Shown: positions 21,201 to 59,733 of the stretch, in pieces
Layout: each line of letters starts with the position of its first letter
Numbering within the stretch: position 1 is the first letter of the stretch
Virus record (IMG/VR): IMGVR_UViG_3300045257_000190
Coordinates: 1 to 64,000 of that record
DNA: 64,000 bases
Reading direction: 5' to 3' (one strand)
Source of the DNA: a virus
The notes under the pieces: generated by a model
What the model saw: only the letters and a program-made list of their open reading frames with translations
Database searches by the model: none
Told to the model about the DNA's origin: nothing
Made by a program: the position numbers and the translations under genes

Positions 21201-24200
21201 TCGAGGATGTCCGTCACCGGCTGCATGATGTGATCGAGCAGCGTGTATTCGCTGGCGCTCTTAGGCTTGTCGAACCCAAGCGCATGCCGCGTCCAGTCGA
21301 CGAAGTACCGCCAGATCGAATTGCCCTGCTTACGGGGTTCGTAGCCCAGCTGCGACATGATGCGCCGGAACTGCGGGCTCGCCTGTTTCGAGGCGGCGAA
21401 CGCCTGCACCTCGGGGTTGGTCATCAGCCATGTGTGTACCTCACGGACGTCACTGGTCGCGTGGCGCAGTAGATTCCACACCCTCGGATCGACCGTCTCC
21501 CTGTTCAGCCTTGCATGGTTGGCCAGCTCGGTGCCGATCGTGCGCAGCGCGTGAAGCTCACGATGGTTCGGATCGGTCTTGAGAAGATTGTTCAGGCGGT
21601 CAGTGGTAACCGAGTGGGCGATCTCGTGCAGTATGGTCTGCGCGGTTGACGGCGTATCCAGGTTGATGCCGATGTGGCGCTGGCCGTCACTGCGCATGCC
21701 CTCATGCGTGTAATATCCGTGCGTGCCACGGGGACCGCTCTCAAGGTTGTAGTGTATACTCCTGTAGCCACGACGTACAGCTTCCCCGAACGATATGATG
21801 GGTATGTTATCGTTCACACGATCATAGAGTTTACGCGCCAGCTCCCATAATGGACGTTGCTCTGTCTTGAGCGCGCTGCTGCGCAGGATCGTCTCGAGTG
21901 CTGCCTTGGGTGTGTAGTCAACACCGTGTTCCTCGGAGGCGCGTATGTCCCGCCGCAGATCCTCGTGCAGACGCGGGTCGTTGGCCATGCGCACGTAACG
22001 CGAGGCAAGCGGATCACGCAGGCCTTCGGGTCTGACACCCTCCTGGCGCAGCACTCCACCCAGCCCGTGCCGGCGTTCCAGCTCCGCCTCGATCTGCGCG
22101 CGGGTGCGCTTCGGCAATGCCTCGAGGCGTTTGTGGATAACCTCGATGTCCTCAGGCGTTACCCCGCGCCGGTGCAGGATTGCGTTCTCGTAGCGCGCCC
22201 GGTCCTCGGCAGTGGCGCCTTCGGGCAGGCGTGCCCCAAGGCCCTCGATCTCGTACATCGCGCGCAGCACGCTGCGGGTATGTCCGCCGCCCGCTTCGAC
22301 CTTGGCGACGTGCTTCTCGATCTGCGACTTCGGTATCGACGCGTTCTCGACCGCGTGCCCGACCGGGTCGTTGATCGCCTTCAGTGCGTTCTCGAGGTTC
22401 TCAATCCGCTCGGGATCGAAATGCGACAGCAGCTCGTGCAACTCCTCGGTGCGGTGCTGCTTCTGCCGGGGTGACAGCTCGGGGTCAGGCGCGCGCTCAT
22501 GTTCCTGCTGCTGGCGTAGTAACTCTAGTTCAAGTTCCTTGTTCTTAGCCTGCTCGAGCCGGCGGGTGAGCCCCTCGGCAATCGTGTCATACCCCTCGCG
22601 CCGCTGCCGCCCACCCTGGCGGCGGTCCAGCTCGTATTCCGCGTGCGCCTCGGGGCCGGTGATCTCGCCGGAGGCGACCTTGTCCACCAGATCGTTCTGA
22701 ATGCGCTCGCGATCGGTGGTGCCGGCGGCGCGTTCTTTCTCCTTGGCCTCGCCGAACACCTGCGTGGCAATCGGTGCCTCGCCTGCCTCACCTTCATGCG
22801 CGGTGGGAACCGTTTCGCCTTCCTCGGCGGCCCGATGCTCGGCGACGCCCTCGAGTTCAGTCGTGCTGCCGCTTGTCTCGGCAACACGATCCTCGGTCTC
22901 GGCAGTCCGTGCGCCGCGCTCGGTCTCGACCGCGAAGCGCTCACCCGATGCCGCGCGCATCGCCTGGATCTTCCTGGCCTCCACGCGTGCCTTGCCCGCC
23001 TTGACCTCGGCCGCGCGCTCCTTGATCTGCGCGAGCTTCTCGGCGGCGGCCTCCTTCTTGGCCTTCTCGGCGGCCTGCAGCTCCGCCTCGCGCGTGGCCT
23101 TGGCGCGCGCGACGGCCTCGGCATCCACCGGCTTGGCTTCGGGGAGCTTGGCCTTGGCGGCGGCCTCGGCGGCGGCGGGCGCCCGCAAGGGCCCGGGCGG
23201 TGGCTCCTCGCGCTTTTGTTCGCGTATGGCCAGCACGTCGGCGAGCTTGGAGGGAGCCTTCGCCGCAGGCTTAGCAGCCGGCTTAGACAGGATATCGTGG
23301 GCTTCCTGCGGCTTCATATCGAGAAGCTGCTCAGGGGTGTAACCCCGCGCCGCAAGATCACGATACATCGCCTTCGTAATCATGAAGGGCACGCTGGCCT
23401 TGGTGTCCGGCGCCTTCGCCTCGCCCTCGACCTTGGTGATCTTATTGCCGAAGTGTACGCGCTTGCCGTCCTGCCACACCTCGACGGGGATCGCGCCCAC
23501 CGTGGGGTGCTCGGACACCTGGGTCATAGTGCGCCGTTCAAACTTACCGGCGCCCGGGCCCGAGGTGTATTTAACTCCCCACGCACCACTCGAGTGCTGG
23601 GCCAGAACTTTATCGGGGCCGCCCCGGGTCTGGAATTCACCTAGCTTATTAACGTCCCCTTCCGACACGTAGAACGTGCGATCGGAACGTGGCTGGGGTC
23701 CCTGCTCGGCGGCACCGTGCTCGGGGCGATACGCCTTGTCGCGCGTCGTCGTGCCGTCCTCGTGCACCTTGTAGGTCGAACCTTTGGCGGTGGTGAACCC
23801 GCCGGTGACCCTGGGCTCGGGCCCGGGTGTGGGCGCCACCCCTGCCGCTGCCTCTCCCGATGGTGCAGCTGGCCGCGCACCGACAGGTTCGGCAGGGGTG
23901 GCTTCAGCCTGAGGGGAGAGCGAACCCCCAGGCCGATCGGGTCGCGGCTCGACACCTACTCCCGGAGTAACCGTCTCAACGGGTTTGACAGGTGCTTCGG
24001 TGCCGGCAGGCCGGGGTTCACCCTCGAGCTTCGCACTTTCGCGCGCGTGCATCATCGCGATCTGCGGGGTGCTCATCCCCTTGAAGCTGTCCTCCGACCG
24101 GCCGGTCATGCCCATCAGGTCGCTGATCATGTCGGGGCGCTTGATGCCCTGCGTCGGCTTGATCGGTGCCCGTGCTTTTGACGCGGCTACGGCGGCCGCT

Positions 24201-25972
24201 GCAGGCTGCGTGGCGGCCGCCGCGACCCTGGCGGTGTCCACAGGGGGTGCGGCGGTCGCGGCCGTCTGCGCGGCCGCTGACGTGGCGGCAGGCGGGCCTG
24301 CGGGCGTGCCGCCCCCACCCGGCGGGGGCGGGGGCGGTGGCTCCCCCGGGCGCCGTGGCGGGTTGGCCTCGGGCAGCGAGGGGAACATCTCCCCCTGCCC
24401 CGTCGTGGGAACGATCGTGGGCGGTGCCTGATTGATCGGCAGTTCGTCCTGCCGGGCGCCGGGCATGCCCTGCGTGGGCGTGTTCATCGGCTGCGGTGGC
24501 GGCGTGGGTTCACCGGTCATTCGCCGCCCGGGCGCGTTGGCCTGCTGCACCTGTTGCAGTAACTCGCCCTGTGTGCCGCCCGGTGGGATACTCGGGGGCG
24601 CATTCTGCAAATCAAATTGCCCCTGCGGGGGCGGTATCGGACCGACAGGCTCGGTGTAAATCTGTCGCCCTGGCCCGGCTTCAGGTGGCCCGAGGGCTTC
24701 CTTCAGCGCCGCGCGTTCGTCAGGCGGTGTCTGCCCGACGTCGCGGGTATCCTCGATGCCCTTGGCGGGACCCTTGTGCGCGAGACCACCAATGGCGCCG
24801 AAGAACAACCCCGGGATCGCACCCGACGCGAACATCTTGGCGACCTTGGTGGGGTCGAATTCTTCGTTCAGGCCTGTCTGGATACCTGCGCTCTGGCTTA
24901 GAGCCTCATTGGTGGCTCCTTGAGTGCCCATCAGGGCACCACCCTCGGCAGCACCAATGCCGGCCCGGGCCAGTCTGCCACGCCCGGCGGTACCTAGCGC
25001 ACCATGCACCAGCGTGCCTGACACACCCGCACCGGTAGCGGCACCGACCACACCACCCGCTGCCACCAGTAAACTGGCGGTCTGCTGGATAACCTTCTCT
25101 TTAGCCGCGACGATGCTCATGCCCTGCTTGCGGTTCTCCGCATAGCCGGGCGCCTGCATCATCTCATCATCGGAGGCAGCGGTAACCTGCTTGACGATAT
25201 CGTTGTAGACCGCACCACCACCCTGTGCGCCAAAGAACGCCCCTGACCCGGCCATACCGCCACGCGTGGCAACGGTACCCAACGCAGCCTTACCCGCAGC
25301 AGCGATCTCCTCGGCAGTCTTACCGGCCGCCGTTGCCGCAGCGACTGCCTTCTCGGCGGTGCCGGCATATTTCGCAGCGGTAAGTGCTACCTTGGCGCCG
25401 ATCGAGCTGGGCAGCACGAACGACAGCAGCATGGGTATCTGCGCGGTAAGATTGATCGCCGCGTAACGTGCGGCATCGCCGAAGCTGTCTATCGACGGGG
25501 CTTTAGGGTCATCACTGAACAGGCTGGTCAACGTAGCCTTGCGTGCCCCAGGCGTCATGCTCTGGATCGACGCCTCGATATCATGCTCAAGCGACTGTTG
25601 GGCACGGCGGAAGATATTCTGCGAATCAGGATCGGAGCTTAGCTGTTGGGTTGCGTAAGCTGCCGCACCCATAAGATCAGCACCCATCGAGCGGGCGCCG
25701 TTCCACGCGGTCTTGGCGAAATCCGAGAAGTATAACCCGTGATCCTCGGGCGCAGTGTCAGGCGGGCGAAAGCCGAACGACTCACCGTTCGGATCATACC
25801 CGGCGATATCTTCGATGCTTTGAGTCGGTGGCCTGACTGGCGGTTGGTAATGACTGACTGTGCGCGACGATGGAGCCGGCGGAGTGTATGCCCGCGTGGT
25901 GGGTGTAATACCCGACGGAATACCGTCGAGCTGGTCCTGATAAAGCCCCTGTTCGAAATCATCGAGCGGCAT
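18236..25972 (-). CDS. Giant putative ejection protein with internal metallopeptidase motif
   Basis: A 2578-aa protein, by far the largest in the window. In order: a Pro-rich N-terminus; Ala/Gly-rich hydrophobic helices at about 150-420 that could insert in membranes; a Pro-rich low-complexity stretch at about 430-640; a long Ala/Glu/Lys coiled-coil region at about 900-1200; a zinc-peptidase motif HEIAH at 1449-1453 with a following Ser/Thr; then a long helical C-terminus. The gene order (nozzle, ejection proteins, transglycosylase protein, giant) matches podoviral internal virion proteins that leave the capsid with the DNA. The peptidase may act on host envelope or on virion proteins. I see no RNA polymerase motifs. 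The start ATG lies 3 nt after the upstream stop. Confidence 0.8.
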   Translation of the reverse strand: MPLDDFEQGLYQDQLDGIPSGITPTTRAYTPPAPSSRTVSHYQPPVRPPTQSIEDIAGYDPNGESFGFRPPDTAPEDHGLYFSDFAKTAWNGARSMGADLMGAAAYATQQLSSDPDSQNIFRRAQQSLEHDIEASIQSMTPGARKATLTSLFSDDPKAPSIDSFGDAARYAAINLTAQIPMLLSFVLPSSIGAKVALTAAKYAGTAEKAVAAATAAGKTAEEIAAAGKAALGTVATRGGMAGSGAFFGAQGGGAVYNDIVKQVTAASDDEMMQAPGYAENRKQGMSIVAAKEKVIQQTASLLVAAGGVVGAATGAGVSGTLVHGALGTAGRGRLARAGIGAAEGGALMGTQGATNEALSQSAGIQTGLNEEFDPTKVAKMFASGAIPGLFFGAIGGLAHKGPAKGIEDTRDVGQTPPDERAALKEALGPPEAGPGRQIYTEPVGPIPPPQGQFDLQNAPPSIPPGGTQGELLQQVQQANAPGRRMTGEPTPPPQPMNTPTQGMPGARQDELPINQAPPTIVPTTGQGEMFPSLPEANPPRRPGEPPPPPPPGGGGTPAGPPAATSAAAQTAATAAPPVDTARVAAAATQPAAAAVAASKARAPIKPTQGIKRPDMISDLMGMTGRSEDSFKGMSTPQIAMMHARESAKLEGEPRPAGTEAPVKPVETVTPGVGVEPRPDRPGGSLSPQAEATPAEPVGARPAAPSGEAAAGVAPTPGPEPRVTGGFTTAKGSTYKVHEDGTTTRDKAYRPEHGAAEQGPQPRSDRTFYVSEGDVNKLGEFQTRGGPDKVLAQHSSGAWGVKYTSGPGAGKFERRTMTQVSEHPTVGAIPVEVWQDGKRVHFGNKITKVEGEAKAPDTKASVPFMITKAMYRDLAARGYTPEQLLDMKPQEAHDILSKPAAKPAAKAPSKLADVLAIREQKREEPPPGPLRAPAAAEAAAKAKLPEAKPVDAEAVARAKATREAELQAAEKAKKEAAAEKLAQIKERAAEVKAGKARVEARKIQAMRAASGERFAVETERGARTAETEDRVAETSGSTTELEGVAEHRAAEEGETVPTAHEGEAGEAPIATQVFGEAKEKERAAGTTDRERIQNDLVDKVASGEITGPEAHAEYELDRRQGGRQRREGYDTIAEGLTRRLEQAKNKELELELLRQQQEHERAPDPELSPRQKQHRTEELHELLSHFDPERIENLENALKAINDPVGHAVENASIPKSQIEKHVAKVEAGGGHTRSVLRAMYEIEGLGARLPEGATAEDRARYENAILHRRGVTPEDIEVIHKRLEALPKRTRAQIEAELERRHGLGGVLRQEGVRPEGLRDPLASRYVRMANDPRLHEDLRRDIRASEEHGVDYTPKAALETILRSSALKTEQRPLWELARKLYDRVNDNIPIISFGEAVRRGYRSIHYNLESGPRGTHGYYTHEGMRSDGQRHIGINLDTPSTAQTILHEIAHSVTTDRLNNLLKTDPNHRELHALRTIGTELANHARLNRETVDPRVWNLLRHATSDVREVHTWLMTNPEVQAFAASKQASPQFRRIMSQLGYEPRKQGNSIWRYFVDWTRHALGFDKPKSASEYTLLDHIMQPVTDILDESIKHNERVNPSDPVLRAHAEPLRQASVDYLRDAGRGIVERIRPSNLPDRLRNAVYGATNVDALTSFHKDILPGLEDYRRIRDTIARTGTEAAQRFGDATRALIKQWGKLSDQKELGQLMNKASIGEMHLGEGVKPDANAHLKSPEQQAELRSAQAEYAKLSSGAKDFYNKARDLYKQFYKETREAELSGSLKSVIPDVTPDQQSAFVHALRNQESLEAYMKDPDNSEIAKAFGTKWAENRDLAKIVAKAHSYGYTKGDYFPQRRYGKYVVHYGTDENRGVEFFDRKSKALDRRAELVKQYGEKDVWQVTRHNQKFTKDILATHPAVGELESALARKGFTAAQAEHARDVLASILVNHMSDTQAARQRLRRQGIVGAETNHSRVLANEFVNHVNRLGYLRHGAERQATLDNLWAQQRDLERPGADPGDATRAAMVIQSLEKRIQRPEDMNNSVQRNLAHVNAFNYAMSLMSPSHMVTSTMEAHTNSIALLGGRHGIFRATSAVARNLARAAPVLGKSGDGMLQAMRHNLQSSNWNVLDMLTKQFQDAPGANKAHIQALHDMLAQSGVIDHTQMSDMRRQMNPDGVFDGKIAGMWERVADTNAIVAHYVDAINRYVSAKSAFDLELAKNKGDVAGAIEYAEKTARRVAPNYTSGNRELLTSPMGPLKWAGAPLMQFKRYGLHMYAMMGTLVKESMRAGTSAERWEARKSLAYLMGTHAMMAGVLGLPTTDAIRYLGGAWDLFHGRAPHNYENSMRGAIASVFGKTAGELISRGLPHALGFDVHRRVALNNLLEMPELSNFGAKGIGEVLMHLVTGATGDNLTKAVEGATKLLQGDLGGTRALIPRIVRDPMDAINLARKGVVDSKGHTILPPSKISYSDVGLRAVGFNPARVSETREGRAAVLEARQEQSAERSQLTTSWLEGSPADRAAAWQAIVAYNAANPHARITREQLLQQEKASKKSSATFGLRLPKQSAAALMGAGAFANAP
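23958..23968. repeat. Dispersed palindrome copy 11 (inside gene)
   Basis: ACTCCCGGAGT, exact. In the giant ejection-protein gene. Confidence 0.85.
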
Positions 25973-29362: not shown

Positions 29363-30154
29363 CTAGCTCTCCACTTCCCGCTTCAGGTCTGCCAACGAAC
29401 CGGCGATCTCGCTCACCACCACTTGCAGACGTCGGTCGTAATCCGCCCATAATAACGGATGATGCCGCTTCAGATAACTGGCACGACGTTCCCCCCACCA
29501 CGCCGAACAGCGCGCGCACTCGGGTGAATTAGTTACATAATCATACACCCGGGGCACCGGTATCTTATGCAGTGCGAGATAGGAGAACACCTGCTCATGC
29601 GTCCAATCCACGATGGGCAGCCAGAGCGTGATCCGATCAGCGATAACCTCGAGGTTCTCGGCGGGCAGTACGGGCATGTCCACGCGCTTGGTGCCACGTA
29701 TCAACAGGGTAATCCCGTCATCGTAGACACGCTGCATGGCAGGCGCCATCAGGTTCGCCCAGCAGCAATCATAGCGGGATACCAATTTAGCGCCCGACTG
29801 GCCCATCACTCGCGCCACAGGGTGCGCCGAGTAGGGCATGAGATCGGTGGGTAACCCATTCGCATCGATCCATTCGGACACATGCGTCTCGACGCGCACG
29901 AACTTGGGTACCATGGCCTCGATGCGCGCGACACTCGCCATCATCTCAGGGAGCAGATCACCCGTGTCGATGTGGTAGACCGTGATCCGGTCGAGATACT
30001 CCCGGAGTAAGTGCACACACGTGAGCGAATCCTTACCCCCGCTCGCGAGCAGGGCGATCTTCTCGTGCTGATCGAGGATGCTGAAATCTATCATATACAG
30101 ATCGGTCGGGTGATACTCTCTGCAGTACAGTCGCCAACCCAAAACAGAGAGCAC
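29363..30154 (-). CDS. PAPS-reductase-like PP-loop ATP pyrophosphatase family protein
   Basis: A 263-aa protein with the PP-loop LLASGGKDSL and a Cys pair (ECARCSAWW) near the C-terminus, as in phage members of the phosphoadenosine-phosphosulfate-reductase-like (adenine nucleotide alpha-hydrolase) family. The substrate of phage members is mostly unknown; sulfur transfer or nucleic-acid modification has been proposed for relatives such as DndC. Two starts are possible: a GTG at 30,154 next to GAGGGG, or the ATG at 30,094 that begins MIDFSILDQHEK. A palindrome copy lies at 29,998-30,008. It follows a methyltransferase gene, which hints at a modification function. Confidence 0.85.
   Translation of the reverse strand: MLSVLGWRLYCREYHPTDLYMIDFSILDQHEKIALLASGGKDSLTCVHLLREYLDRITVYHIDTGDLLPEMMASVARIEAMVPKFVRVETHVSEWIDANGLPTDLMPYSAHPVARVMGQSGAKLVSRYDCCWANLMAPAMQRVYDDGITLLIRGTKRVDMPVLPAENLEVIADRITLWLPIVDWTHEQVFSYLALHKIPVPRVYDYVTNSPECARCSAWWGERRASYLKRHHPLLWADYDRRLQVVVSEIAGSLADLKREVES
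29998..30008. repeat. Dispersed palindrome copy 12 (inside gene)
   Basis: ACTCCCGGAGT, exact. In the PAPS-reductase-like gene. Confidence 0.85.
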
Positions 30155-37937: not shown

Positions 37938-39854
37938 CTACTGCTGCCCCATTGCAGTTATACCGAGCTGCACCGAGAAATTCACCGGTGACGCGGCGGG
38001 CGCCACGTCCGTCGTCACCGTGTAGTTATTCGCATCCGCCGTGATCCAGACGCGCGTGGCCGGCGTGATGTTACCCATTGCCGTGACGTTCATCACTCCC
38101 GGCGCAAAGCCAAGCCCGTGCGGTTGCGTGGTGGTCGCGATAGACCCGAACCCCAGCGAGCACGAAGAATTAAACATTGCTACGTCCTTGATCGCGTGGC
38201 CGCCTGTCAGACTGCTGTTCATGCTGGAGTACATCCAGGTCGAAGCATCGGCACGGATAATGTTGCCCGCCCCGCTGGCGGTAAGTGCCGGGTTACCGTG
38301 CCCCACCTTATCCCACTCGGTAAGCTTGCAGTTGGAGAGCATGATATAATTGGCTGGCCCGGTGGCATCGATCGAAGCGGAGCTTCCATCATGCCAGGAG
38401 ATATCACATTGAGTGAGCAGCACGATCGCGTTCGAGGTCACACCGGTAATATAAACCCCAGAGGCGTTGTCTCCGTTAAACCCTTGATTATAGCAGCCGG
38501 TAAAGTAGACAGTGTGTTGGGCGTTCGCGGTGCTATCGTTTATCTGGCACATATAATTCGTATGATCGAACCCACAGCCGACAAACTGCGCAATGCTGGT
38601 GTGACCATTCGATGTCACCTGCACCAGCACGCCAATGTGATAATTGTAAGCGAAATCGTTGGTGAAACACGGGTTGTCCACCCGGCCCAGGTCATACACC
38701 GCACCGAACACCTGCTGGTACTGCAACACATACGGATCGAGTGACCAGAACACCCACCAGTGGTTGTCGTGGAACCGCAACGTGTCCGTGAGGTAGTCCA
38801 GAAACGCCACCCGTGCGATCGGCTGGCCCTTACAGTGATGCACCGTAAGGCGATCGGTGCGATTGCTCGCGGCACTGCCATAGGGGTATGTCGAGAATGC
38901 GATGAACGGATTGAGCAGCATCAGGTGATGCAGCTCGATGTCCATCACGCTGTCGAAGTAGAACGTCGGCGGATACTGCGTCGGCGCCCAGGACACGCCG
39001 AGCGTTGCCTGCTTGTACACGAAACCGATGTGATGGATCTCGACGCCGAACACCCGGTTGTTGACCGACGGTGAGCCGACCGGGCGCAACATAAATGCCG
39101 ACACCATCGAACCGTTGTTGACCAGCCATGTGCCGTTGCCTGGTACGATCTGGTTTGCGCCAAACACGCCGACGGACGAGGTGAACTCGCACACATCGCC
39201 GTAGATGTGCACACTGCGCTGGATGTTCAGCTGTGCGCTGTAAAGATATTTGCCGGCTGGAATATACAGCGCCTGCTGCACGGCAGTCGCAGCGTTGATC
39301 GCTGTCTGCAGCCGCGCTGTATCGTTAGTGCCGGTAATGGTCATATCCGTGGCGTTCGATGTGACGACCGCATCACCCTTGCAACCGAACCATTCGGCGC
39401 TGATCGATCCATCCTGCCAGCCAAGGCGGTGCCACCGCCGGCTGGAGGCGTCCACGATGATGAAGCCGTCATTGTCGGCCGACGTGGTATCCGTTGCAAC
39501 ATACGCGAAGTTGCCCTGGCCTTTGCTAGACGTAGCGTCATACCCGGCAATGAACGCTTGGCCCTGAGTCAACGTCGCCGTGGTAGCAGCCCGCAAGGCA
39601 GCAATGCTGATGAATACCGGAAGCACGATCCGGTCGGCGTACTGTTTGGTCGCCGCCTGCAACGCCAGCGTAGGGTCAGCCGCCAGCGTGACCGTCGAGC
39701 CAAAGGTAACAGCACCCGTAACGGTGCCGCCTGTCAGAGATAAAAAACCACCGGTGCCCGTGGTGACCCACTTGGTGCCATCCCAGCGATAGCTGCCGTT
39801 CGGCGCCGTGGCGATCTGACCGGTGGTCGGGGCATTAGGAAAATCGAATGCCAT
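37938..39854 (-). CDS. Tailspike with right-handed beta-helix (pectate-lyase-like)
   Basis: A 638-aa protein starting at the ATG overlapping the upstream stop (TGATGG). An N-terminal fibre motif DPTLALQAATKQYADR is followed by a conserved block (KGQGNFAYVATDTTSADN, then DASSRRWHRLGWQ). Next comes AEWFGCKGD with a downstream TARLQTAINAA, which marks a pectate-lyase-type beta-helix as in many tailspikes. The beta-helix probably binds or cuts host surface polysaccharide. The conserved block is shared with the upstream spike, although the helix parts differ. The C-terminus is beta-rich. Confidence 0.82.
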   Translation of the reverse strand: MAFDFPNAPTTGQIATAPNGSYRWDGTKWVTTGTGGFLSLTGGTVTGAVTFGSTVTLAADPTLALQAATKQYADRIVLPVFISIAALRAATTATLTQGQAFIAGYDATSSKGQGNFAYVATDTTSADNDGFIIVDASSRRWHRLGWQDGSISAEWFGCKGDAVVTSNATDMTITGTNDTARLQTAINAATAVQQALYIPAGKYLYSAQLNIQRSVHIYGDVCEFTSSVGVFGANQIVPGNGTWLVNNGSMVSAFMLRPVGSPSVNNRVFGVEIHHIGFVYKQATLGVSWAPTQYPPTFYFDSVMDIELHHLMLLNPFIAFSTYPYGSAASNRTDRLTVHHCKGQPIARVAFLDYLTDTLRFHDNHWWVFWSLDPYVLQYQQVFGAVYDLGRVDNPCFTNDFAYNYHIGVLVQVTSNGHTSIAQFVGCGFDHTNYMCQINDSTANAQHTVYFTGCYNQGFNGDNASGVYITGVTSNAIVLLTQCDISWHDGSSASIDATGPANYIMLSNCKLTEWDKVGHGNPALTASGAGNIIRADASTWMYSSMNSSLTGGHAIKDVAMFNSSCSLGFGSIATTTQPHGLGFAPGVMNVTAMGNITPATRVWITADANNYTVTTDVAPAASPVNFSVQLGITAMGQQ

Positions 39855-42478
39855 CAGATTAGCAACCCGCGAGCGGTCAGCGTGCCGGAGTAGGTGATCC
39901 TCACCGTCGCCCAAGGCGGGATCAAAACGTAGACGTTCGTGTTGGCGGCTACGGCACCACCTAGGAGGAACACGCCACCAATATCGACCATGTTGATGAT
40001 CCCGGTTGAATAGAGCGTCAGAGACTCCGGCCTGGACCCAGCCCGATGTGTCCACGGCGACGCCGTAATCTGCGCAGCCCAGTCGAGCGCTATGGGCGGC
40101 AGCCCGAGATTGCTGTCGATGACGTTCCCCGTTCCATTGTCAGCGATCGGCGTTGGACAGGTAACGAAGCTATTGCCGCTGATGGTAAAGCCACCACTTC
40201 CAGGGGCCATATTGATGGCCGGCTGCGGCAGATTATAGAAGCTATTGCCAACGATGGTGCCGCCGAGTTGCGCGCCGGCAGCCACGACGATCCCCTGTCC
40301 AGTGGTAGGACTGGTCAGCGTTGACGTGAAACAGTTGGCGGTGATGTTTAGCTGCGCCTCACCGGTCACCTGCATCCCCACCCCGGTAGCCGGGATGAGG
40401 AACAACGAGGTGGTGACCATCACGGAGAAGATCGGCGTAGAGAGGTAAATCCCGGTGATGCAATTGAACTGGCAGTTAGTTACGGAAAGCTGCGCCTCGC
40501 CAGTCAACGGAGGCGCACTGATGCCGATGCCGCATCCGGTGAAGTTACAATTTACACACGCTACTCCCTGTATCCAGTTTCCGTAATTGATCCCGGTCCC
40601 GAGGTTGTTGAAGGTGCAGGAGTCGAAGTTGTAGAGCACGCCCGGCACCGAACTCGTGGCCTCCAAATCCAGGCCAATGCCGGTCGTCTCATAGGCTCCC
40701 TGGTCAGTATGTCCCAGCACCAGCACGTTGAGGAACGAAATCTGGGTCAGCGCTGATACCTTAATCGCTGTCCCCCAGAAATGCGTCAGCAGCGCCCCGT
40801 CGCTCCCCATGAAGCTGACATTGGACACGTCCGACTGCGGTGAATTCGGAAAGCTAACGCTGGCAATTGTCAGGTTCAGCGCGAGGCCGATGGTGGCGCC
40901 ACCGTTTGCCCCGGTGCAAAATGTCATGTCGCGCACATGCGCTGAATTGGTCAGGCCCGGCAGGTTGATCGCCAGACCACCGCCAGCGGCCCAGGTCAGC
41001 TTGGTGATGTCCGCACCGGCCCCCAATATGCTGATGACCGCGTTGGTGCCGAGGGTGACGGAGATGGCGGCCGTCAGCCGATAGTTACCGGCCGGGATGA
41101 TCAACGCGCCGCCGGCTATGCGTATGGCGTTGAAGGCGGCGTTGAAGGCAGCGGTGTCATCCGTAGTGTTATCACCGACGGCACCGAACCAGTTCACATT
41201 GACCGGCTCGTTCTGCCAGCCGTCGCGATACCAGCGCCGCCCCGAGGCGTCGATAATTATGGTGCCACCATTGTCGGCGCCGGTGGTGTCAGTGCTCACA
41301 TAAACAAATCTGCCACCACCTTTCGTGCCAGTCCCGGCATAGCTCCGCACCTGCACATCCGAGTTCGGTAGCGTAGCGGCGGTCATCGCCCGTAGCGCAG
41401 CGAGGGTCGCAACGGTTGCTGTTACGCGATCGGCGTATTGCTTGGTCGCCGCCTGCAACGCGAGCGCCGGATCGGCTGGCAGGGTCACGGTGCCGGTGAA
41501 TGTCGGCGATGCGATCGGCGCGCCGCCCGCTCCGGTCACGTCGGCCAGCAGCAGGGTCACCGCGCCCGTGCGGGTGTTGAAACTATTCACATCGACGTCG
41601 GACGTGGACGGGCTGTTGGTCAGCACCCACTGCGTCGAGTTGCCATCGTTGTAGGAAACGTAGAGTCCGGTCCCGGCGCTGTCCCACCAGAGCGCACCGG
41701 GCAGGATACCCGATGGTGGTGTATCGCTCACCGCAACCACGCCGGCGTGCGCGTCGGTGTATTGCTTGGTGGTCGCCATCAACGCGGTCGTAGGGTCGCG
41801 GTTCAGGGTGATGTCGGTGGCCGCCGCCATCGTAAGGCCGGCCGTGTTGACCGTGACCTTATCGACCCCGCCGACGGTGAGAACGTGGGCGGCAGTAGCG
41901 GGTACCACGTAGTTGGCGCGGTTGGAAGTAATGCTCATCCCAAACGTCGTGGCGTACAGCGCAATGTGCCTGCTCAGATCCGTGACGCCACCCGGCGCGA
42001 CAACGCTGCCGAAATTAACACCACTCGAGAAACTCGTCGGCGTGTAGGAGGTATTCCCGGCAGCACTCAGGCTCAGCAGGTTAACCGGTGCCGTGGTGGA
42101 ATTGGTGTAAGCCGGCATGCCGACAACTCGCAGCACCCCTGCGGCATTAGCTACAGCGACGAGGTTAGCACCGGCATTATCGGTGATACCGAGCGCTGGG
42201 TTGTTACCGGATCCAGTAAGCAACAGCTGCTTACCGTAATTGGCTGAACTCCAGCTACCCAGTGACGTGGTAAGAACCCCGCCGTTGAGCGGCAGGAACG
42301 CCCCCGAGCCAGCGATCGGCACAACCGACGTAGCCGTGCCACCGGACCCGCCAGTGCCCTCGCCGTAATACAGCGTATGGCTGGCCTCGTTATAGGCCAG
42401 CTCAGCGTTCGCCAGCGAGGTCGGCGCTCCCACCCCATCCACCGCAAGACGACGTTTTACGCGAAGGGTGGCAACCAT
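39854..42478 (-). CDS. Tailspike with shared N-terminal module and beta-helix
   Basis: An 874-aa protein. Its N-terminus (LRVKRR, then SLANAELAYNE and LYYGEGTGGSGGTA) is nearly the same as that of the next upstream fibre, and probably attaches to the tail. Fibre motifs (DPTTALMATTKQYTD, DPALALQAATKQYADR) follow. A block shared with the 638-aa spike (KGGGRFVYVSTDTTGADN) leads into WFGAVGDNTTDDTAAFNAA and a long right-handed beta-helix with many NCNFTGC-type rungs. It probably degrades or binds host glycan. The C-terminal end is beta-sandwich-like. Confidence 0.83.
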   Translation of the reverse strand: MVATLRVKRRLAVDGVGAPTSLANAELAYNEASHTLYYGEGTGGSGGTATSVVPIAGSGAFLPLNGGVLTTSLGSWSSANYGKQLLLTGSGNNPALGITDNAGANLVAVANAAGVLRVVGMPAYTNSTTAPVNLLSLSAAGNTSYTPTSFSSGVNFGSVVAPGGVTDLSRHIALYATTFGMSITSNRANYVVPATAAHVLTVGGVDKVTVNTAGLTMAAATDITLNRDPTTALMATTKQYTDAHAGVVAVSDTPPSGILPGALWWDSAGTGLYVSYNDGNSTQWVLTNSPSTSDVDVNSFNTRTGAVTLLLADVTGAGGAPIASPTFTGTVTLPADPALALQAATKQYADRVTATVATLAALRAMTAATLPNSDVQVRSYAGTGTKGGGRFVYVSTDTTGADNGGTIIIDASGRRWYRDGWQNEPVNVNWFGAVGDNTTDDTAAFNAAFNAIRIAGGALIIPAGNYRLTAAISVTLGTNAVISILGAGADITKLTWAAGGGLAINLPGLTNSAHVRDMTFCTGANGGATIGLALNLTIASVSFPNSPQSDVSNVSFMGSDGALLTHFWGTAIKVSALTQISFLNVLVLGHTDQGAYETTGIGLDLEATSSVPGVLYNFDSCTFNNLGTGINYGNWIQGVACVNCNFTGCGIGISAPPLTGEAQLSVTNCQFNCITGIYLSTPIFSVMVTTSLFLIPATGVGMQVTGEAQLNITANCFTSTLTSPTTGQGIVVAAGAQLGGTIVGNSFYNLPQPAINMAPGSGGFTISGNSFVTCPTPIADNGTGNVIDSNLGLPPIALDWAAQITASPWTHRAGSRPESLTLYSTGIINMVDIGGVFLLGGAVAANTNVYVLIPPWATVRITYSGTLTARGLLI

Positions 42479-44930: not shown

Positions 44931-47150
44931 TCACGCCAGCACCATAGCGCGCGCTTGCACCCCTGTGGACGTGAGTTCTTGCAGCTCGATATTAGACAGC
45001 ACGCGCGGCCAGTAGCGGATGCGCGATTTGAAGCCGTTCTGTGTGGCCTGCCGGATCGCGCTCAGATTCAGTCGGTTGCTCGAGACGGGCGGGGTGCCCG
45101 TACTCGTCACCACCGCGCCGCCGTTCAGTGCTCCGGTGAGTACGCCGGCATTGTATGTCATCGCCGCTCTAAACGGCACACCAGGGACGATCGTATTCTG
45201 AGTGTTCGCCGACGCCTGACCCACGCCCGCGCTTGCCTCGATGATATAAAACGAATTAGCGGTGCATCGGGCGATGGTGCAGTTGTTGATGCTGCCGTCA
45301 TCGAACCCGACGATGTCCTGATTGCCCGCGTTGACCTGTTGCATCGTCGCGTCCACCGCGAACGACCCCAGCGTGGGACTGTACCAGGGCGCGCCAGCCG
45401 GCATCGAGCACACGTCAGCCGTACGGGTCACGGCCCCAGCCGTTGTTGGGATGTAGCTAGTGGGCGCCGTCACAAACGCCGACGTCTCGACCTGTGGACC
45501 CCAGGCGAAGATGCCGAGGCCGGTGCTGGCGGGGGTGTAGTTTTGAGCAACAACGGTTACGGTAGCCGGGGCTGGGAAGAAACCAAAAACATAAGACCCA
45601 CCAGTGCCGGTACTGGTAGCCGTCGCCGACACACGATACCAACCGTTCGGGTAGGGCACGATCGTGCAGACGGTAGCCCCACTTGTTGCCACGATGGTGC
45701 CAGCCGCCAAGTCAAACAGCCCGCCAGTATTTCCCGCAGGAAATGCCGTATTACCAAAAGCCATCGATACACGCGTATAAGCGTTGGCCTTCACAAACAC
45801 ACTGCCAACGTAGGTCGTATTTATCGCTCCGTTATATGGTCTATATATAAGGTGAGCACTGGCTACCGTGTCGTTAGTCACTACGCTCGACGCGTTGGTG
45901 GTGCCGTCCGGCGACACGGTCACATTGTCAGTCGTCAGCAAACAAGCTGCGGGTGAAACGGACCAACCCGCCAGGGCAACGCTCGTGGTTTCTAAATTGG
46001 TCCGCGTCTCCTCGATCAACAGGCCCAGCGGCGCGAGCGTGCTTGGGTGATAACCGAACCGTGGCGCGTTGATCGCGGCGGTTCGTATGGTGCCGGTGTT
46101 ATCGACGTAGGTGCCGGTGGTGCTGCGGGTGAGCGTGAGCTTAGGATCGAGCGTAGGACCAGTAAGATTTAGATCCAGCACCGGCGCCAGCGTGATGGCT
46201 TGCAGATCGGCATTGGCCAGATCGGTCGGCCAGTAGCGAGCGCGGTAGATCGTGCCGCAGAGAAAAAGACTGCTGTTCGCAGAGCCAACCCCCAGCGTGG
46301 TTAAACCGCTCTGGATGCTTGCCGCAACTCCAACAGCCGCAGCCCCGCCATTAAGGCTGCCCGACTGCCTACCGTTGCGAAATGCACCGGCGGCCTGATA
46401 GATGACGCCAAGCGGTGGCACGCCTCCGGGTAGATCCACAACTCCTGCAACTGCGTCACTTAACGAGATGTTGCCAGAAGCACGATGCAATAGACCGGAG
46501 CGGCTAGCACCGACATAGGCGCCAAAGGGCACGCAGGCGTTGATGTTCAAGAAGGACTCTGACGCTTGGACGTAGTATGTGCTCGCCGCCGGATTGAACC
46601 AGACGTCCAGCGGCATCGTGCAGAGATCCGCCCCGCGTGCAACGAAGGTGCCGGTGGTCGGGATGTAGGATGTCGGAAACGAAACACCACTCGTGGAACT
46701 CGCGCGCTCCAGTTGAAACCGCGTCAACGAGCCGGTTACGGTAACCACCATGGTGCCGGCAGTCGTCAGAACAAAGGACGCCGGGTTACCGGCGGTGGCA
46801 GTGATGGGAAGGGTGGTGGAGGAAATTCCAGTGCCGGCAGTCACGGTGGCGCTGCCGGTGCCGATCACCCAGAGGATATACACATTGTTTGCCGGCGCCC
46901 CGAGTGACGCAAGTGTTTGGGTTGCCGGCGCGTCGCTATTCAGCAAGAAATTAGTGCGGGTTTCTTCGGTATAGAGGCCGCCGCCGATGAAGCGCGGCAC
47001 ACTCGCCGCATAACTGGTATAAGTCGACCCGGGCGCATCGGTATAAAAACTGTTGGTTCCAACGCTGTTGCGAAAGAACGTCAGCCCAGCCGGCAGCACG
47101 CCCTGCGTGAAGTCCAGATCGAGCGACGGTGTGCTGAGACTGCCCGACAT
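44931..47150 (-). CDS. Lectin-like tail fibre with internal duplication
   Basis: A 739-aa protein made of two related halves. Each begins with an LDLDFTQG or LDLNLTGP strand, then an EETRTNFLLNSD or EETRTNLETTS segment, then a TSYIPTT...RTADVCSMP or VARGADLCTMP segment, and ends with a YRARYWPTDLANADLQ or SRIRYWPRVLSNIELQ strand. The fold is probably concanavalin A-like (LamG type), common in sugar-binding phage fibres. The start overlaps the upstream stop (TAATG). It probably binds host surface glycans. Confidence 0.75.
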   Translation of the reverse strand: MSGSLSTPSLDLDFTQGVLPAGLTFFRNSVGTNSFYTDAPGSTYTSYAASVPRFIGGGLYTEETRTNFLLNSDAPATQTLASLGAPANNVYILWVIGTGSATVTAGTGISSTTLPITATAGNPASFVLTTAGTMVVTVTGSLTRFQLERASSTSGVSFPTSYIPTTGTFVARGADLCTMPLDVWFNPAASTYYVQASESFLNINACVPFGAYVGASRSGLLHRASGNISLSDAVAGVVDLPGGVPPLGVIYQAAGAFRNGRQSGSLNGGAAAVGVAASIQSGLTTLGVGSANSSLFLCGTIYRARYWPTDLANADLQAITLAPVLDLNLTGPTLDPKLTLTRSTTGTYVDNTGTIRTAAINAPRFGYHPSTLAPLGLLIEETRTNLETTSVALAGWSVSPAACLLTTDNVTVSPDGTTNASSVVTNDTVASAHLIYRPYNGAINTTYVGSVFVKANAYTRVSMAFGNTAFPAGNTGGLFDLAAGTIVATSGATVCTIVPYPNGWYRVSATATSTGTGGSYVFGFFPAPATVTVVAQNYTPASTGLGIFAWGPQVETSAFVTAPTSYIPTTAGAVTRTADVCSMPAGAPWYSPTLGSFAVDATMQQVNAGNQDIVGFDDGSINNCTIARCTANSFYIIEASAGVGQASANTQNTIVPGVPFRAAMTYNAGVLTGALNGGAVVTSTGTPPVSSNRLNLSAIRQATQNGFKSRIRYWPRVLSNIELQELTSTGVQARAMVLA

Positions 47151-48673
47151 TACACGCGCGCCGCCAGCACGGTGATCCCCACGTCCGCCAACGTGGCGTC
47201 CTGCGTCGTAGGCGCCACCATCTGCAGGATGTCACCCACCGCCAACGAGCCGCCGGCACCCGCCAATGTGGCGCTGGTGGCCGAAGTGGTGGTGATGGTG
47301 ATGGTGCCAAGCGCCGACGTCACACCAGCGACGGTGATCTTGTTCAGCGTGAACACGGCATTCGCCGTGGCCCTGGTCACGTCATACACCACAGTGCCGG
47401 CAAGGTTGGCGGGCACGGTTATCGCCATCGCCGTGGGCATGTTCACTACCGCGCTGGCGGTGGGCCGGCCGGCGAACGGGAAGCTGATCGGAAGTTGTTG
47501 TACTTCGGTAGGGAGCGAAGCGTAACCGATAGCCCCCGCCGGGAACGTGATGCCGCCGGTGCCAGTCTGCGCGAAAACGATCGGGTTACCCGCCGTTGCG
47601 CCGCCCGTAATCATAAGTCTGTTGCCAGCAGCGGGTCCAATCGTCACCGGCGTGATCGTTGCGCTGAAGGTGATGGCACCGCTATAGGTATGGTTACTGG
47701 AAAATGTGCCAGTGAAAACGCCGCCCCCGTTCAGCGTTGTTGTGCCGGTCACCGTCAGCGCATTACCCACCGCCGTCGTGGCGCTGGACACCGTCAGGAT
47801 GTCGGTAGAACCAACCATCATCACATGCGATGTGAGGGCGTTATAATTCAGCCGAAAACCACTCGCTACGCTAAACCCGATTTGTCCCGCATATAGATTA
47901 ATGTGCTGCGAGAGATCGGTGGTGCTGGCAGCTTGGCGGTTGCCGAACGCGATGCCGGCACCGAACGTGCTCAGTCCGGTTGCACGGGTGATCGTCAAAG
48001 GAGCGGGCGTTAAGGCGACGCCGGTGTCACTGTAACGGGTAAGCGAGAAGTCCGACCCAGCATTGCTGCCGCTCTCAGCAGTGGTATCCCCAAGCACCAG
48101 CATCCAGCGGTTCAATACGTTTCGCTTGGAGATGAGATAGCCCGCCGCCAGACCGGCTTGTCCGTCCATAATCACGCCCGGCCAGCTAGGGCCGATGCTG
48201 GTGATATACAGTCTGGAATCGGCACCGGTGATTGTGATCGGACTGGACGACCCGGTGAACGTCACCGGGCCAGTGACAGTCTGCCCACCGATCAGCTTAA
48301 GGAAGGGCCCGCCTTGCGCGCCCGTGGTGTCGTTGAGCTGCTGCAGGGTGATCGCCTGCTGCGGGTTGGTCGCCGGCGGCCCGGTGAGCAGCAGGGGCCC
48401 CAGCATGGTGTCGCCGGCGACATGCAGGTAGGGCGCGTCGGTGAGCTGCTGCAGCGTGGCCGGCTCCAGCGGCGTCATCGCCGGACCCGCCAGGACCAGC
48501 GTGCCCTGCATGGTGCCGCCCACCAAACGTAAATAGGGCGCCAATGCGATCGTGGCGTCGGACGCGTCGAGCTTCATCGCCCACCACGCGTTCCACTCGG
48601 CGGCCGAAGGCACGTACCCATCCAGCCAGTTCGGCGATTTACCGACAATCAGATTGGTGGAGCCATCCAGCAC
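47150..48673 (-). CDS. Tail fibre with PSAAEWN N-terminal module
   Basis: A 507-aa fibre with a GTG start after GGAGGAAGCA. It begins with the module [19 protein letters not shown] that recurs in the 108-aa protein at 44,419. Repeated [15 protein letters not shown] / [15 protein letters not shown] units of about 35 residues follow (three in a row), then a Thr/Ser/Ala beta-rich shaft and tip. It is the first fibre after the adaptor genes and may be the main attachment fibre. Confidence 0.78.
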
Positions 48674-55841: not shown

Positions 55842-56444
55842 ATGGACGACGAGATCATCGACGAGTTGCTGGACGGGATCACCGTGGTCGGCGCCGAGCC
55901 CGACATGGACAAAGCCACGCTATATGCGTTCTGCATCGACACCGCCCAGCGGATCCATGATTACGACGTGATCGCCCGGCGGTATGGGTTCGGCGATGAG
56001 GCGGGGATGGTGGAGTTCCTGCGCACCCACCCGCCGGTGGTGAAGCGGGTGAAGGAATTGCGGGCGGTCTGGGAGAGCGACGAGAGCGTCGAGCTTCGGT
56101 TGAGGAAGCTGGCGGGGCATAGCCTGCTGGAGGCGCTCCCCGATACTGCTTCCATCATGTTCGACAAGCAGGTTACTCCCGGAGTGAGGCTCGAGGCGCT
56201 CAGGGCGCATGCCAGGATAGCGGGTGTAGATACACCCCCACACGTGCCGGCCGGCGGTGCGGGGGGTATCGGCGGGGGTAGTGGTGGCGGACGGTTCTCA
56301 GTGCAGATTGTGTTTAACAATTCCGGGCGGGTGGAGACGATCACCGCGTCGGAGCGGCATTTGAAGGAGATCGAGAGCGAGACGGAGATGACCCGCGAGA
56401 TGGACACGGAGGAAAGCTTTGATACGATTACGGGTGATACATAA
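55842..56444 (+). CDS. terS: Terminase small subunit
   Basis: A 200-aa protein directly upstream of the large terminase, with the start at the ATG after AGGGACAGGG. Residues 30-90 form a helical DNA-binding-like part (DYDVIARRYGFGDEAGMVEFLR). A Gly-rich segment near 145-160 (AGGAGGIGGGSGGGRF) separates it from a beta/acidic C-terminus. It would recognise the phage DNA and regulate TerL. A palindrome copy lies inside it at 56,175-56,185. The stop overlaps the ATG of terL (TAATG). Confidence 0.72.
   Translation: MDDEIIDELLDGITVVGAEPDMDKATLYAFCIDTAQRIHDYDVIARRYGFGDEAGMVEFLRTHPPVVKRVKELRAVWESDESVELRLRKLAGHSLLEALPDTASIMFDKQVTPGVRLEALRAHARIAGVDTPPHVPAGGAGGIGGGSGGGRFSVQIVFNNSGRVETITASERHLKEIESETEMTREMDTEESFDTITGDT
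56175..56185. repeat. Dispersed palindrome copy 17 (inside gene)
   Basis: ACTCCCGGAGT within GTTACTCCCGGAGTGAG. In terS. Confidence 0.85.
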
Positions 56445-57844
56445 TGAGCATTATGTATGTGCCGCCCCCGACGATCGAGCGGTTCATGCTCGATGACAGC
56501 TTAGTCAGGTTTTTATTAGGACCCATCGGCTCGGGCAAGTCGATGGGATGTATCATGGAGATCCTGCGACGCGCGCGTCAGCAGGCGCCCAACGGAGATG
56601 GGGTCAGGCAAACCAAGTGGGTCGCGGTCAGGAATACCATGTCGCAGTTGAGGTTAACGGTGCTGGCGGATATCCAGCAGTACCTCGCGCCCATGATATC
56701 CTATTTTGTTACCGATTCGACGATCCGCGTGCGCGCGGGACTGGAGGATGGTAGTCGGATCGAGTGCGATATCATATTAATTCCGTTGGATACGAAACAG
56801 GATGTGCAGCGATTGCTGTCCATGCAGCTGACGGGTGCGTGGATCAACGAGGTGCGTGAAGTTCCCATCGATGTGGTGTCGGCGCTGATCGGTCGGTTAG
56901 GGCGTTATCCCTCGAAGATCTCGGGGGGACCGACGTGGTTCGGGCTGATCGCGGATAGCAACCCGTGGGATATCGATAGCCCGTATCACGAGCGGGTTTT
57001 GATAGCGCCTGAGGCCAACTGGAAGCTGTTCCACCAGCCGTCAGGTATCGGTCCTTATGCCGAGAACCTGGATAACCTGCCGCCGGGGTATTACGAAAAT
57101 CTGTTATCGGAACGCGACGAGGGCTGGTCCGAGGTGCATATACGCTCGGAATTTGGTAGCAGTAATGCCGGGCAGGCGGTGTTCCGCCGGTCGTTCGACA
57201 TGGCGACGCACGCGAAGGATATGCATGCGGTGGTCAACCCGCAGCGCCCGATCGCGATCGGCATGGATTTCGGACGTACGCCGTGCGCGCTGATCGCCCA
57301 GGTGGATGTGTTCGGCAGGTTACTCGTGTTCGAGGAGATAGTTACCGATGATATTGGTTTGCATCAGATGCTGGGGGAAAGGCTAAAACCTCGGTTATTG
57401 TCGGATCCCTACGTCGGTAAAAGGTCGTTCGTGGTCGCCGATCCCGCCGGCAACCAGAAATCCCAGCTTACCGAGGAGAATGCGTTCGATGTGCTGAAAA
57501 GCAACGGGTTCACCTCGTATCCGGCCCCCACCAACGATATCGGCCCCAGGTTGCTCGCGGTGGAGAAGATGCTGCGCCAGACGATCGCCGGGGAGCCGGC
57601 GATCCAGATCTCTCGGATGGGCGCGCCGACGCTGATCAGGGCACTCGCCAGCGGGTATAAATATAGAAGGCGGCGCGACGGCGGGCTGGATGACAAGCCA
57701 GATAAAACCCACCCGTACTCCGACGTGTGTGATTGCCTGCAATACCTGTGTCTGGCGGTATCCTCGGATATGAGCACGCGGGTGATACGCCGGTTCCAGC
57801 CCAAGCCGGCGGTGAAGCGGTTTTCCTCGATGGCATGGACGTGA
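56444..57844 (+). CDS. terL: Terminase large subunit
   Basis: A 466-aa packaging motor and nuclease. Walker A is GPIGSGKS (26-33) and Walker B is near GAWINEVREV with the catalytic Glu. The C-terminal RNase H-like nuclease has IGMDFGRTPCALIAQ (D275) and a later VADPAG. The length and both domains fit podoviral TerL. It cuts concatemers and drives DNA through the portal. It is on the opposite strand from portal and capsid genes, an uncommon arrangement, and is followed by the XRE regulator. Confidence 0.93.
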   Translation: MSIMYVPPPTIERFMLDDSLVRFLLGPIGSGKSMGCIMEILRRARQQAPNGDGVRQTKWVAVRNTMSQLRLTVLADIQQYLAPMISYFVTDSTIRVRAGLEDGSRIECDIILIPLDTKQDVQRLLSMQLTGAWINEVREVPIDVVSALIGRLGRYPSKISGGPTWFGLIADSNPWDIDSPYHERVLIAPEANWKLFHQPSGIGPYAENLDNLPPGYYENLLSERDEGWSEVHIRSEFGSSNAGQAVFRRSFDMATHAKDMHAVVNPQRPIAIGMDFGRTPCALIAQVDVFGRLLVFEEIVTDDIGLHQMLGERLKPRLLSDPYVGKRSFVVADPAGNQKSQLTEENAFDVLKSNGFTSYPAPTNDIGPRLLAVEKMLRQTIAGEPAIQISRMGAPTLIRALASGYKYRRRRDGGLDDKPDKTHPYSDVCDCLQYLCLAVSSDMSTRVIRRFQPKPAVKRFSSMAWT

Positions 57845-57855
57845 TAAGTAGGGTT

Positions 57856-58107
57856 ATGATTAAGACCAAGTCGTTCCAAAAGAGTTCCAAGAAGCGGTAT
57901 GAATTACTTCAGCAAGTGTTCCGCGACGCGCGTATGGCGCGCGGGATAAGCCAGCAGGTACTGGCCGAGGATCTGGGCGCGGCGCAGACGCAGGTGTCCA
58001 GGGTCGAGCGCGGGGCGGACGTGCCCGACGTGGTGGAGTTCCTCGAGTGGTGCCGGCAGCTGGAGCTGGATCCCCGGGTGGTGATCGCGAAGCTGATGTC
58101 GGCATAA
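57856..58107 (+). CDS. XRE-family transcriptional regulator
   Basis: An 83-aa protein with a helix-turn-helix of the Cro/CI type (ISQQVLAEDLGAAQTQVSRVERG). The ATG lies just after AGGGTT, 11 nt after the terL stop. It is too short for a dimerisation domain beyond the helix bundle. Such proteins bind palindromic operators, so it is a candidate to bind the dispersed palindrome or nearby inverted repeats, but no direct evidence links them. No integrase is present. Confidence 0.85.
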   Translation: MIKTKSFQKSSKKRYELLQQVFRDARMARGISQQVLAEDLGAAQTQVSRVERGADVPDVVEFLEWCRQLELDPRVVIAKLMSA

Positions 58108-58204: not shown

Positions 58205-58220
58205 GGAGCACTGGTGCTCC
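58205..58220. promoter_or_regulatory. Inverted repeat before the PEP-CTERM gene (possible operator)
   Basis: GGAGCAC (58,205-58,211) and GTGCTCC (58,214-58,220) are exact reverse complements separated by TG. It sits immediately upstream of the TGGAGG ribosome binding site of the PEP-CTERM gene. It could be a repressor operator or an RNA hairpin that blocks the site. Confidence 0.45.
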
Positions 58221-58231
58221 TGGAGGTTATG

Positions 58232-58891
58232 ATGGTAAAACAAACTCTGCTCTACGGCGTGGTGGCGGGGCTGCTCGCCGCGACACCAGCGAGTGCGACG
58301 CTGATATCCTCGGCGGCAGCGCCCGGCCAGCTGGCGGCGGGCGCGTGCGCGGGCAACGACGGTGGCGTGGGCTCATTGAATGTGAGTTGCTCAGGCGGGA
58401 TATACTCGTCTATCGCCATCTCGGCGGCAGGTCCGCCGTTGCTGAACGCGCCGGATCTGTCGGCGACGACGCTGACAGTGAAGACGACGGGCCTGGGGGC
58501 GGGCAGCTCGACGCTGGATATCAATATCGATTCGTCGGGCTTCGCGTTCGCCGGCGGGCCGGTGACCGCCATCTTCACGGTGAACAACCTGATCGGCGGA
58601 GGTGTGGGTCCCTTCGTGCTCACCGCGTCGGCACCGGTGGGCACGCTGACGCATACGTTCACCGCGTCGGGCAGTGCGCAAGACGGCCCGACGATCCTCG
58701 GGGCGTTCACCAACGACCACGCAGAGTTCCAGTTGACGTTCGCTGGCAACACCGTGCAGTCGCTCGACGCGACCATCGAGATCGTCGGCGCGCCCGAGCC
58801 CATCTCGCTGGCCCTGCTGGGGACCGGGTTGCTGGGTCTCGGGCTCGTCAGGCGTTCGCGCCGCGTGAGCGACGCTACGCTGGCGGGCTAA
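58232..58891 (+). CDS. PEP-CTERM secreted protein
   Basis: A 219-aa protein with an N-terminal signal peptide (hydrophobic core about 5-17, probable cleavage after ASA at 20-22). A Ser/Thr/Gly-rich beta domain follows. The C-terminus is a textbook PEP-CTERM tail: PEP at 188-190, a Leu/Gly helix to about 206, then RRSRR at 207-211. In bacteria this tail is processed by exosortase and sorts the protein to the surface, often with exopolysaccharide. In a phage genome it is unexpected and looks like host-derived cargo. I chose the second ATG (58,232) for its spacing to GGAGG. The stop overlaps that of the convergent gene. An inverted repeat precedes it. Confidence 0.85.
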   Translation: MVKQTLLYGVVAGLLAATPASATLISSAAAPGQLAAGACAGNDGGVGSLNVSCSGGIYSSIAISAAGPPLLNAPDLSATTLTVKTTGLGAGSSTLDINIDSSGFAFAGGPVTAIFTVNNLIGGGVGPFVLTASAPVGTLTHTFTASGSAQDGPTILGAFTNDHAEFQLTFAGNTVQSLDATIEIVGAPEPISLALLGTGLLGLGLVRRSRRVSDATLAG

Positions 58892-59733
58892 GAGGTCACC
58901 ACCACGGCGTTCGACACGGGCGCCGTGGTGTAGCCGGCGGCGTTGGTCGCGGTGACCACGCAGGTGGCGGACTTACCCACGTCGCCGGGCTGCACCGCGC
59001 GATCGCCGGTGGCGAGCGCGGGCGGGGCGTCGACGCCGTCGAGCTGCCACAGGTAGCTGTAGCTGGTAGGCTCGCCCGACCAGTTGCCCATGGTGCAATT
59101 CAGGGTGGCGCCGGATTGGGTGACGTGAGGCGTATCCACGAGGGCTGGCGCCTCCCCTGAGGGCGTGCCGCCTTCGCCCGGGGGCACCTCCGGCGTCCCC
59201 ACGACGTCCCCGGGCAGCGCCGCCAGCGTGTCGCCGGCGCGCATGTGGTTGATCACGTAGTGCATGGACGTCAGCGCGCCGTTCAGCGCCGCGAGATCGT
59301 TGGCGGCGAGCATGGGGGTGATAGCCGCGAGGGCGGCCTCGTAGTCACCGGCACCGGCTTCCAGGGAAGTCAGGTCCCCGCCGGCCTCCAGAAGGGCCAG
59401 GGAGGCCTCGAGCGCTGCCAGGACGTCGGCCGCCTCGGGATCCTCGGAGGCCTCCAGCGGGCTCCTGAGGGCCGGCACGGTGGTGTTCAGCGCGCGCCAT
59501 GCATGTTCCTGCTCGACCTGGAGGCCCAGCAGCCGGTCCTCGGACGGCGTGCTGCTCGCGCCGACGGTCGGCTGGTGGGAGGTATTGGGGTTCAGCAAGG
59601 GTGGGCGGACGTCCTCGCCGACGTTGCGGGCGCCCCCGCGAGCCCCGAGCGGATCATGCAGGAATACAGCGCGAGGATCCCGCTGGCGGTCACGCGAACG
59701 ATCGCTCTGACGCTCAAGCACAGGTGCCGGCAT
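58888..59733 (-). CDS. Ig-like domain protein, possible decoration or fibre protein
   Basis: A 281-aa protein on the minus strand, convergent with the PEP-CTERM gene. It has GGGAGG before the ATG. The N-terminus is charged and disordered, the middle is Ala/Leu-rich and helical (VLAALEASLALLEAGGDL), and the C-terminal 85 residues have an Ig-like pattern (CTMGNWSGEPTSYSYLWQL, GKSATCVVTATNAAG). Ig-like domains decorate phage capsids and tails and can bind carbohydrate. Its leader contains a terminator-like structure. A virion role is inference. Confidence 0.68.
   Translation of the reverse strand: MPAPVLERQSDRSRDRQRDPRAVFLHDPLGARGGARNVGEDVRPPLLNPNTSHQPTVGASSTPSEDRLLGLQVEQEHAWRALNTTVPALRSPLEASEDPEAADVLAALEASLALLEAGGDLTSLEAGAGDYEAALAAITPMLAANDLAALNGALTSMHYVINHMRAGDTLAALPGDVVGTPEVPPGEGGTPSGEAPALVDTPHVTQSGATLNCTMGNWSGEPTSYSYLWQLDGVDAPPALATGDRAVQPGDVGKSATCVVTATNAAGYTTAPVSNAVVVTS

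Follow-up and report, generated by a model that had tools for sequence, protein, structure and literature searches.

Phage surface proteins that exclude superinfecting phages or convert the host, such as T5 Llp and Cor-type proteins, are small, exported and accessory, and act at the host envelope. Genes for PEP-CTERM proteins are numerous in some bacteria, and to our knowledge the functions of most of their products are unknown. Bacterial PEP-CTERM proteins (TIGR02595/PF07589; e.g., PepA of Aquincola and Zoogloea) share a signal peptide, the PEP motif, a membrane helix and a basic tail. Exosortases process and export these proteins, which stabilize exopolysaccharide (EPS) on cells and promote flocs and biofilm (PMC12188702, PMC9850573); in Aquincola, bound EPS was higher and soluble EPS lower with PEP-CTERM proteins (PMC9850573), and in Nostoc, adhesion and biofilm were affected by them (PMC12188702). 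On the viral side, a single sentence in a report on hot-spring (Yellowstone) viruses mentions 13 TIGR03118 proteins with a putative exosortase-interaction domain (PMC11003980). These resemble the protein we describe here in having such a putative C-terminus on viral contigs (n = 13), but they belong to another family and are called transferred cellular proteins of unknown function, and the passage in question gives no anatomy, genomic context or class. We found no description of a phage-encoded PEP-CTERM protein in the open-access literature as judged mainly from titles and abstracts, and the class of phage cargo presented below is apparently undescribed.

The gene we studied lies at 58232-58891 (+) of the window, by which we mean the whole 64,000-nucleotide stretch of viral DNA that was analyzed, itself part of a 67,492-base IMG/VR virus record. 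The original prediction had assigned its product a signal peptide and a full PEP-CTERM tail with PEP at residues 188-190, and this reading held: the frame is intact and encodes 219 residues with no internal stop (220 when counted from an alternative ATG at 58229), and the protein passed both curated cut-offs, scoring 20.3 bits by hmmscan against TIGR02595 (cut-off 16) and 24.1 bits against PF07589 (cut-off 20.7). ATG 58232, the start used in the original prediction, is the better one because a Shine-Dalgarno-like GGAGG (58222-58226, +), recognized from the sequence, is positioned 5 nt ahead of it. By inspection the protein begins with a typical Sec signal peptide, (M)VKQTLLYGVVAGLLAATPASA-TL, encoded by 58232-58297 (+), ending near TPASA and having a helix at residues 8-16 in a low-confidence model; the near-identical copy in another viral contig, L002, also has a signal peptide by a hydropathy rule. 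The sorting tag, made up of PEP, a hydrophobic helix and a basic cluster, is encoded by 58790-58861 (+), where a six-frame search with TIGR02595 scored 24.4 bits, and the C-terminus of the protein reads APEPISLALLGTGLLGLGLVRRSRR plus a short tail. This was the single match to the PEP-CTERM model across six frames of the entire record, and 14 control genomes gave no matches; chance is therefore no serious explanation.

Between the two signals lies a mature ectodomain (58298-58789, +) that two AlphaFold2 models, built from 7-8 sequences, present as all-beta with 12 strands at low confidence (pLDDT 55.5 and 59.8). Fold matches were to carbohydrate-binding modules, beta domains of Cry proteins and viral jelly rolls, all of them weak and of a generic beta-sandwich type; since that arrangement is common and the models are of low confidence, we did not use these matches as evidence of function. 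A divergent ectodomain is usual among bacterial PEP-CTERM proteins, and in this the window protein is like them; it differs in being encoded by a phage that has no exosortase and in reaching the cut-off of no named subfamily (PepA, THxN, NF038129 and EDSAP-1 gave 22.5-31.8 bits, below all of their cut-offs of 65-100). It differs as well from T5 Llp and Cor-type proteins, which are lipoproteins or periplasmic proteins that use general routes, whereas the window protein carries a predicted tag for a dedicated host exosortase. At the level of sequence, 58232-58891 is thus confirmed as encoding a PEP-CTERM protein of a phage. The natural reading of its anatomy is an exported, exosortase-sorted protein, and we consider it highly probable that the product is a phage-encoded exosortase substrate.

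Both neighbors named in the original prediction were real. The terminase large subunit (TerL) is encoded at 56444-57844 (+; phrog_2, E-value 9.5e-24) and an XRE/HTH_3 regulator, the upstream neighbor, at 57856-58107 (+; PF01381, PF13560). A convergent gene at 58888-59733 (-) encodes 281 residues with a C-terminal part that is Ig-like by inspection, and its end overlaps that of the PEP-CTERM gene by 4 bases. The inverted repeat that had been ascribed to the gene is present at 58205-58220 (7+7, GGAGCAC-TG-GTGCTCC), but its conservation did not stand up: L002, a relative with 98% identity, has a disrupted copy, and a different phage represented by contigs L003 and L004 has none. It is therefore probably unimportant, and we rejected it as a meaningful site. 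The RNA fold of the gene's leader was unremarkable (z -1.63), the leader had no match in Rfam, and around the gene neither a sigma-70-like promoter, a type that the host may not use, nor a terminator was found beyond chance expectation. The absence of such a promoter immediately ahead of the gene is a point against the explanation preferred below.

Elsewhere the window encodes a portal-type head-tail adaptor, major capsid, internal virion protein, tail fibers, DNA polymerase A, helicase and primase, and no integrase was found among those genes scanned in the record, which may be incomplete. Two overlapping tailspike-type genes (37938-42478, -; overlap ~200 bases) are EPS depolymerase/pectin lyase-like (phrog_4250, phrog_32881), and for this reason the phage probably attacks or adsorbs to a polysaccharide coat. 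The window further contains a phosphoadenosine phosphosulfate reductase-like auxiliary gene (29363-30154, -; PF01507, phrog_424) and a 2578-residue frame with an LPD39 domain (18236-25972, -), a large polyvalent protein that is perhaps an injected virion protein. The closest cultured relatives that we found are Rhizobium phage RHph_TM3_14A and its kin (MN988472), with 61% identity in the capsid, 51% in the portal and 42% in TerL; this kinship hints at an alphaproteobacterial host. These phages have the capsid-portal-TerL order of the window phage, but relatives of the PEP-CTERM, XRE and Ig-like genes are all absent after their TerL. A DUF2201 metallopeptidase/VWA-like gene at 461-1747 (+) has 37% identity to its counterpart in the Rhizobium phage relative.

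PEP-CTERM tails proved to recur in phages, which the original prediction had proposed to look for. A generic PEP-CTERM DNA pattern matched at least 120 stretches in IMG/VR, and the loci form at least 59 clusters of non-redundant viral DNA, often with tandem genes. Among the matches listed were 105 PEP-CTERM-ended ORFs from 85 loci; 90 of these ORFs begin with what resembles a signal peptide, and the ORFs grouped into about 20 ectodomain clusters. All 88 distinct records tested passed TIGR02595 (88/88), which is verification only, as they had been preselected for the motif. Also among the matches listed, a phrog_2 TerL occurred on 29 of 50 long PEP-CTERM contigs. ORFs within 2.5 kb of PEP-CTERM genes encoded terminase, portal, capsid, Erf/RecT, HNH and DNA methylase, and such terminase, portal, capsid and recombinase neighbors show that the genes are embedded in phage DNA. 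A preferred site near TerL is not claimed (11 of 29 within 6 kb vs. 7.8 expected, p 0.12). The family of the 58232-58891 protein (P0001) and a second PEP-CTERM family (P0003) were each searched with two peptide patterns, which can miss remote relatives, in 84,980 prokaryotic species genomes and gave no match; four PEP-CTERM queries had none in 50,697 cultured phages. Within the limited sensitivity of the former search, then, the 58232-58891 family was found in viral contigs only. Judging from these distributions, the gene belongs to a class of phage cargo that is widespread.

The family recurs in contigs L110 (two copies), L140, L141 and L224, mostly as a tandem neighbor of genes from another PEP-CTERM family. 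The copy in L004 is followed directly by an unrelated PEP-CTERM gene of P0003, a family with relatives in nine further viral contigs, and the two families stand in tandem in L004 (9968-12224), L141 (7866-9192) and L140 (544-3421, order reversed), while L110 (1105-3363) has a run of three PEP-CTERM genes, of which two belong to the family of the window protein; the pairs and triplets thus have unrelated ectodomains in varied orders. Methyltransferase genes lie beside the PEP pairs in L004 (FkbM) and L140 (TylF), and methyltransferases were not recurrent in the neighbor tally. In several members (L004:9968-10621, L140:1319-1981, L224:2468-3325 and L110:2710-3363) another residue takes the place of the first proline in the motif (SEP, AEP, YEP), with EP and the helix kept, and the L004 copy was not reported above the family cut-off. 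Processing may have been lost or be unneeded in some family members, and these variants call for caution in assuming it for all.

A chimeric assembly, or contamination of the viral contig with bacterial DNA, would undercut the assignment of this gene to a phage, and we found no point in support of either. Contradicting a chimera, the independent contig L002 has the same TerL-XRE-PEP-Ig order at 98% identity. The gene is moreover a single PEP gene embedded among phage genes, and its GC3 of 0.84 fits that of the phage core genes (0.74-0.89). We consequently rejected this explanation, which we regard as barely credible. The L003/L004 phage, which has another TerL and another gene order, carries an 88% identical PEP-CTERM protein elsewhere in its genome; by blastn, the similarity to the window around the PEP gene is limited to the ORF (82%), a tail gene being also common to both. 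That tail gene, at 44931-47512 in the window, has 70-79% DNA identity to L004:13326-17188, the gene order being otherwise different; the L004 protein is the longer of the two, with two matches to part of its window counterpart. A chimera at this point, or a broken frame together with relatives lacking the gene, had been named as refuting in the original prediction. The frame is intact, and some relatives do lack the gene, as accessory cargo predicts: in the TerL relatives L145, L147, L148 and L150, a relative of the Ig-like part of 58888-59733 follows TerL after 16 to about 770 bp, and the PEP gene is absent. Because these relatives keep the TerL/Ig-like order without it, the PEP-CTERM gene is accessory cargo. 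Changes in the gene fall mainly at third positions, giving dN/dS values of 0.12 and 0.22, by which measure it is under purifying selection. Present in some phages, missing at the same place in relatives and under selection, the gene is by comparative evidence a "moron", an accessory gene that a tailed phage carries.

Accessory status, mobility between phages and the abundance of PEP-CTERM genes in some bacteria could also be expected of a hitch-hiking host gene that is useless to the phage, an explanation that we consider very improbable: purifying selection acts against it, the families recur in several phages, and neither P0001 nor P0003 was detected in the species genomes, within the sensitivity of the patterns used. 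We give a similarly low probability to a signal-anchored envelope protein that aids lysis or late disruption of the outer envelope, for which the tag would serve mainly as a membrane anchor. Consistent with that idea are the position near packaging genes, the signal peptide with a C-terminal membrane helix, and the absence of an exact PEP from some members; however, tandem sets of 2-3 PEP-CTERM proteins with unrelated ectodomains are unlike a lysis cassette, no lysis-family match was found, and the gene is missing from relatives that must lyse too. The main rival to superinfection exclusion is remodeling of the EPS matrix without exclusion, by which the protein would bind or re-anchor EPS, either clumping infected cells or loosening the matrix and in this way altering how the burst spreads through flocs or biofilm. 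The effects of PEP-CTERM proteins on EPS in Aquincola (PMC9850573) and on adhesion and biofilm in Nostoc (PMC12188702) favor it, as do the FkbM and TylF genes beside PEP pairs and the carbohydrate-binding modules among the weak fold matches; set against this, the methyltransferases are neighbors only twice and the fold models are poor, and we consider the explanation rather unlikely.

The explanation that we prefer as a whole, with slightly more confidence than doubt, is that of a moron-type exported PEP-CTERM envelope protein that alters the surface or the EPS of the host, superinfection exclusion being a possible purpose. During infection the protein would be exported by the host Sec system and cut at the PEP tag by an exosortase. 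No exosortase (PF09721) was found in the window record or in 25 other phage contigs, so a phage-encoded enzyme was rejected (0 of 26 records) and a host exosortase would have to act. The cut protein would then end up on the outside of the infected cell or within its EPS, where it could change how accessible, or how well anchored, the surface polysaccharide is that serves such phages as receptor, and rival phages and released progeny would be kept from adsorbing to the infected cell or its debris. Since a protein tied into the coat could mask or modify the receptor once the cell is infected, superinfection exclusion is our best guess for its role; a superinfection-type role (exclusion or conversion) is proposed tentatively, at somewhat less than an even chance. 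For the wider proposition, that a broad class of environmental phages with cassettes of one to three tandem, phage-specific PEP-CTERM genes with interchangeable ectodomains re-coats the infected cell via the host exosortase, we find belief and doubt evenly balanced. If true, phages would have their own equivalent of surface conversion, one operating through a dedicated protein-sorting system.

The recurrence of these genes in dozens of uncultured phages suggests that phages remodel the host coat by borrowing the host's sorting machine. With selection acting on the gene, and with tandem sets in which ectodomains are swapped, exosortase-displayed proteins would be one line along which control of the bacterial surface is contested. 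This idea could explain why PEP-CTERM ectodomains diverge so much, and it predicts that exosortase status shapes the sensitivity of bacteria to phages.
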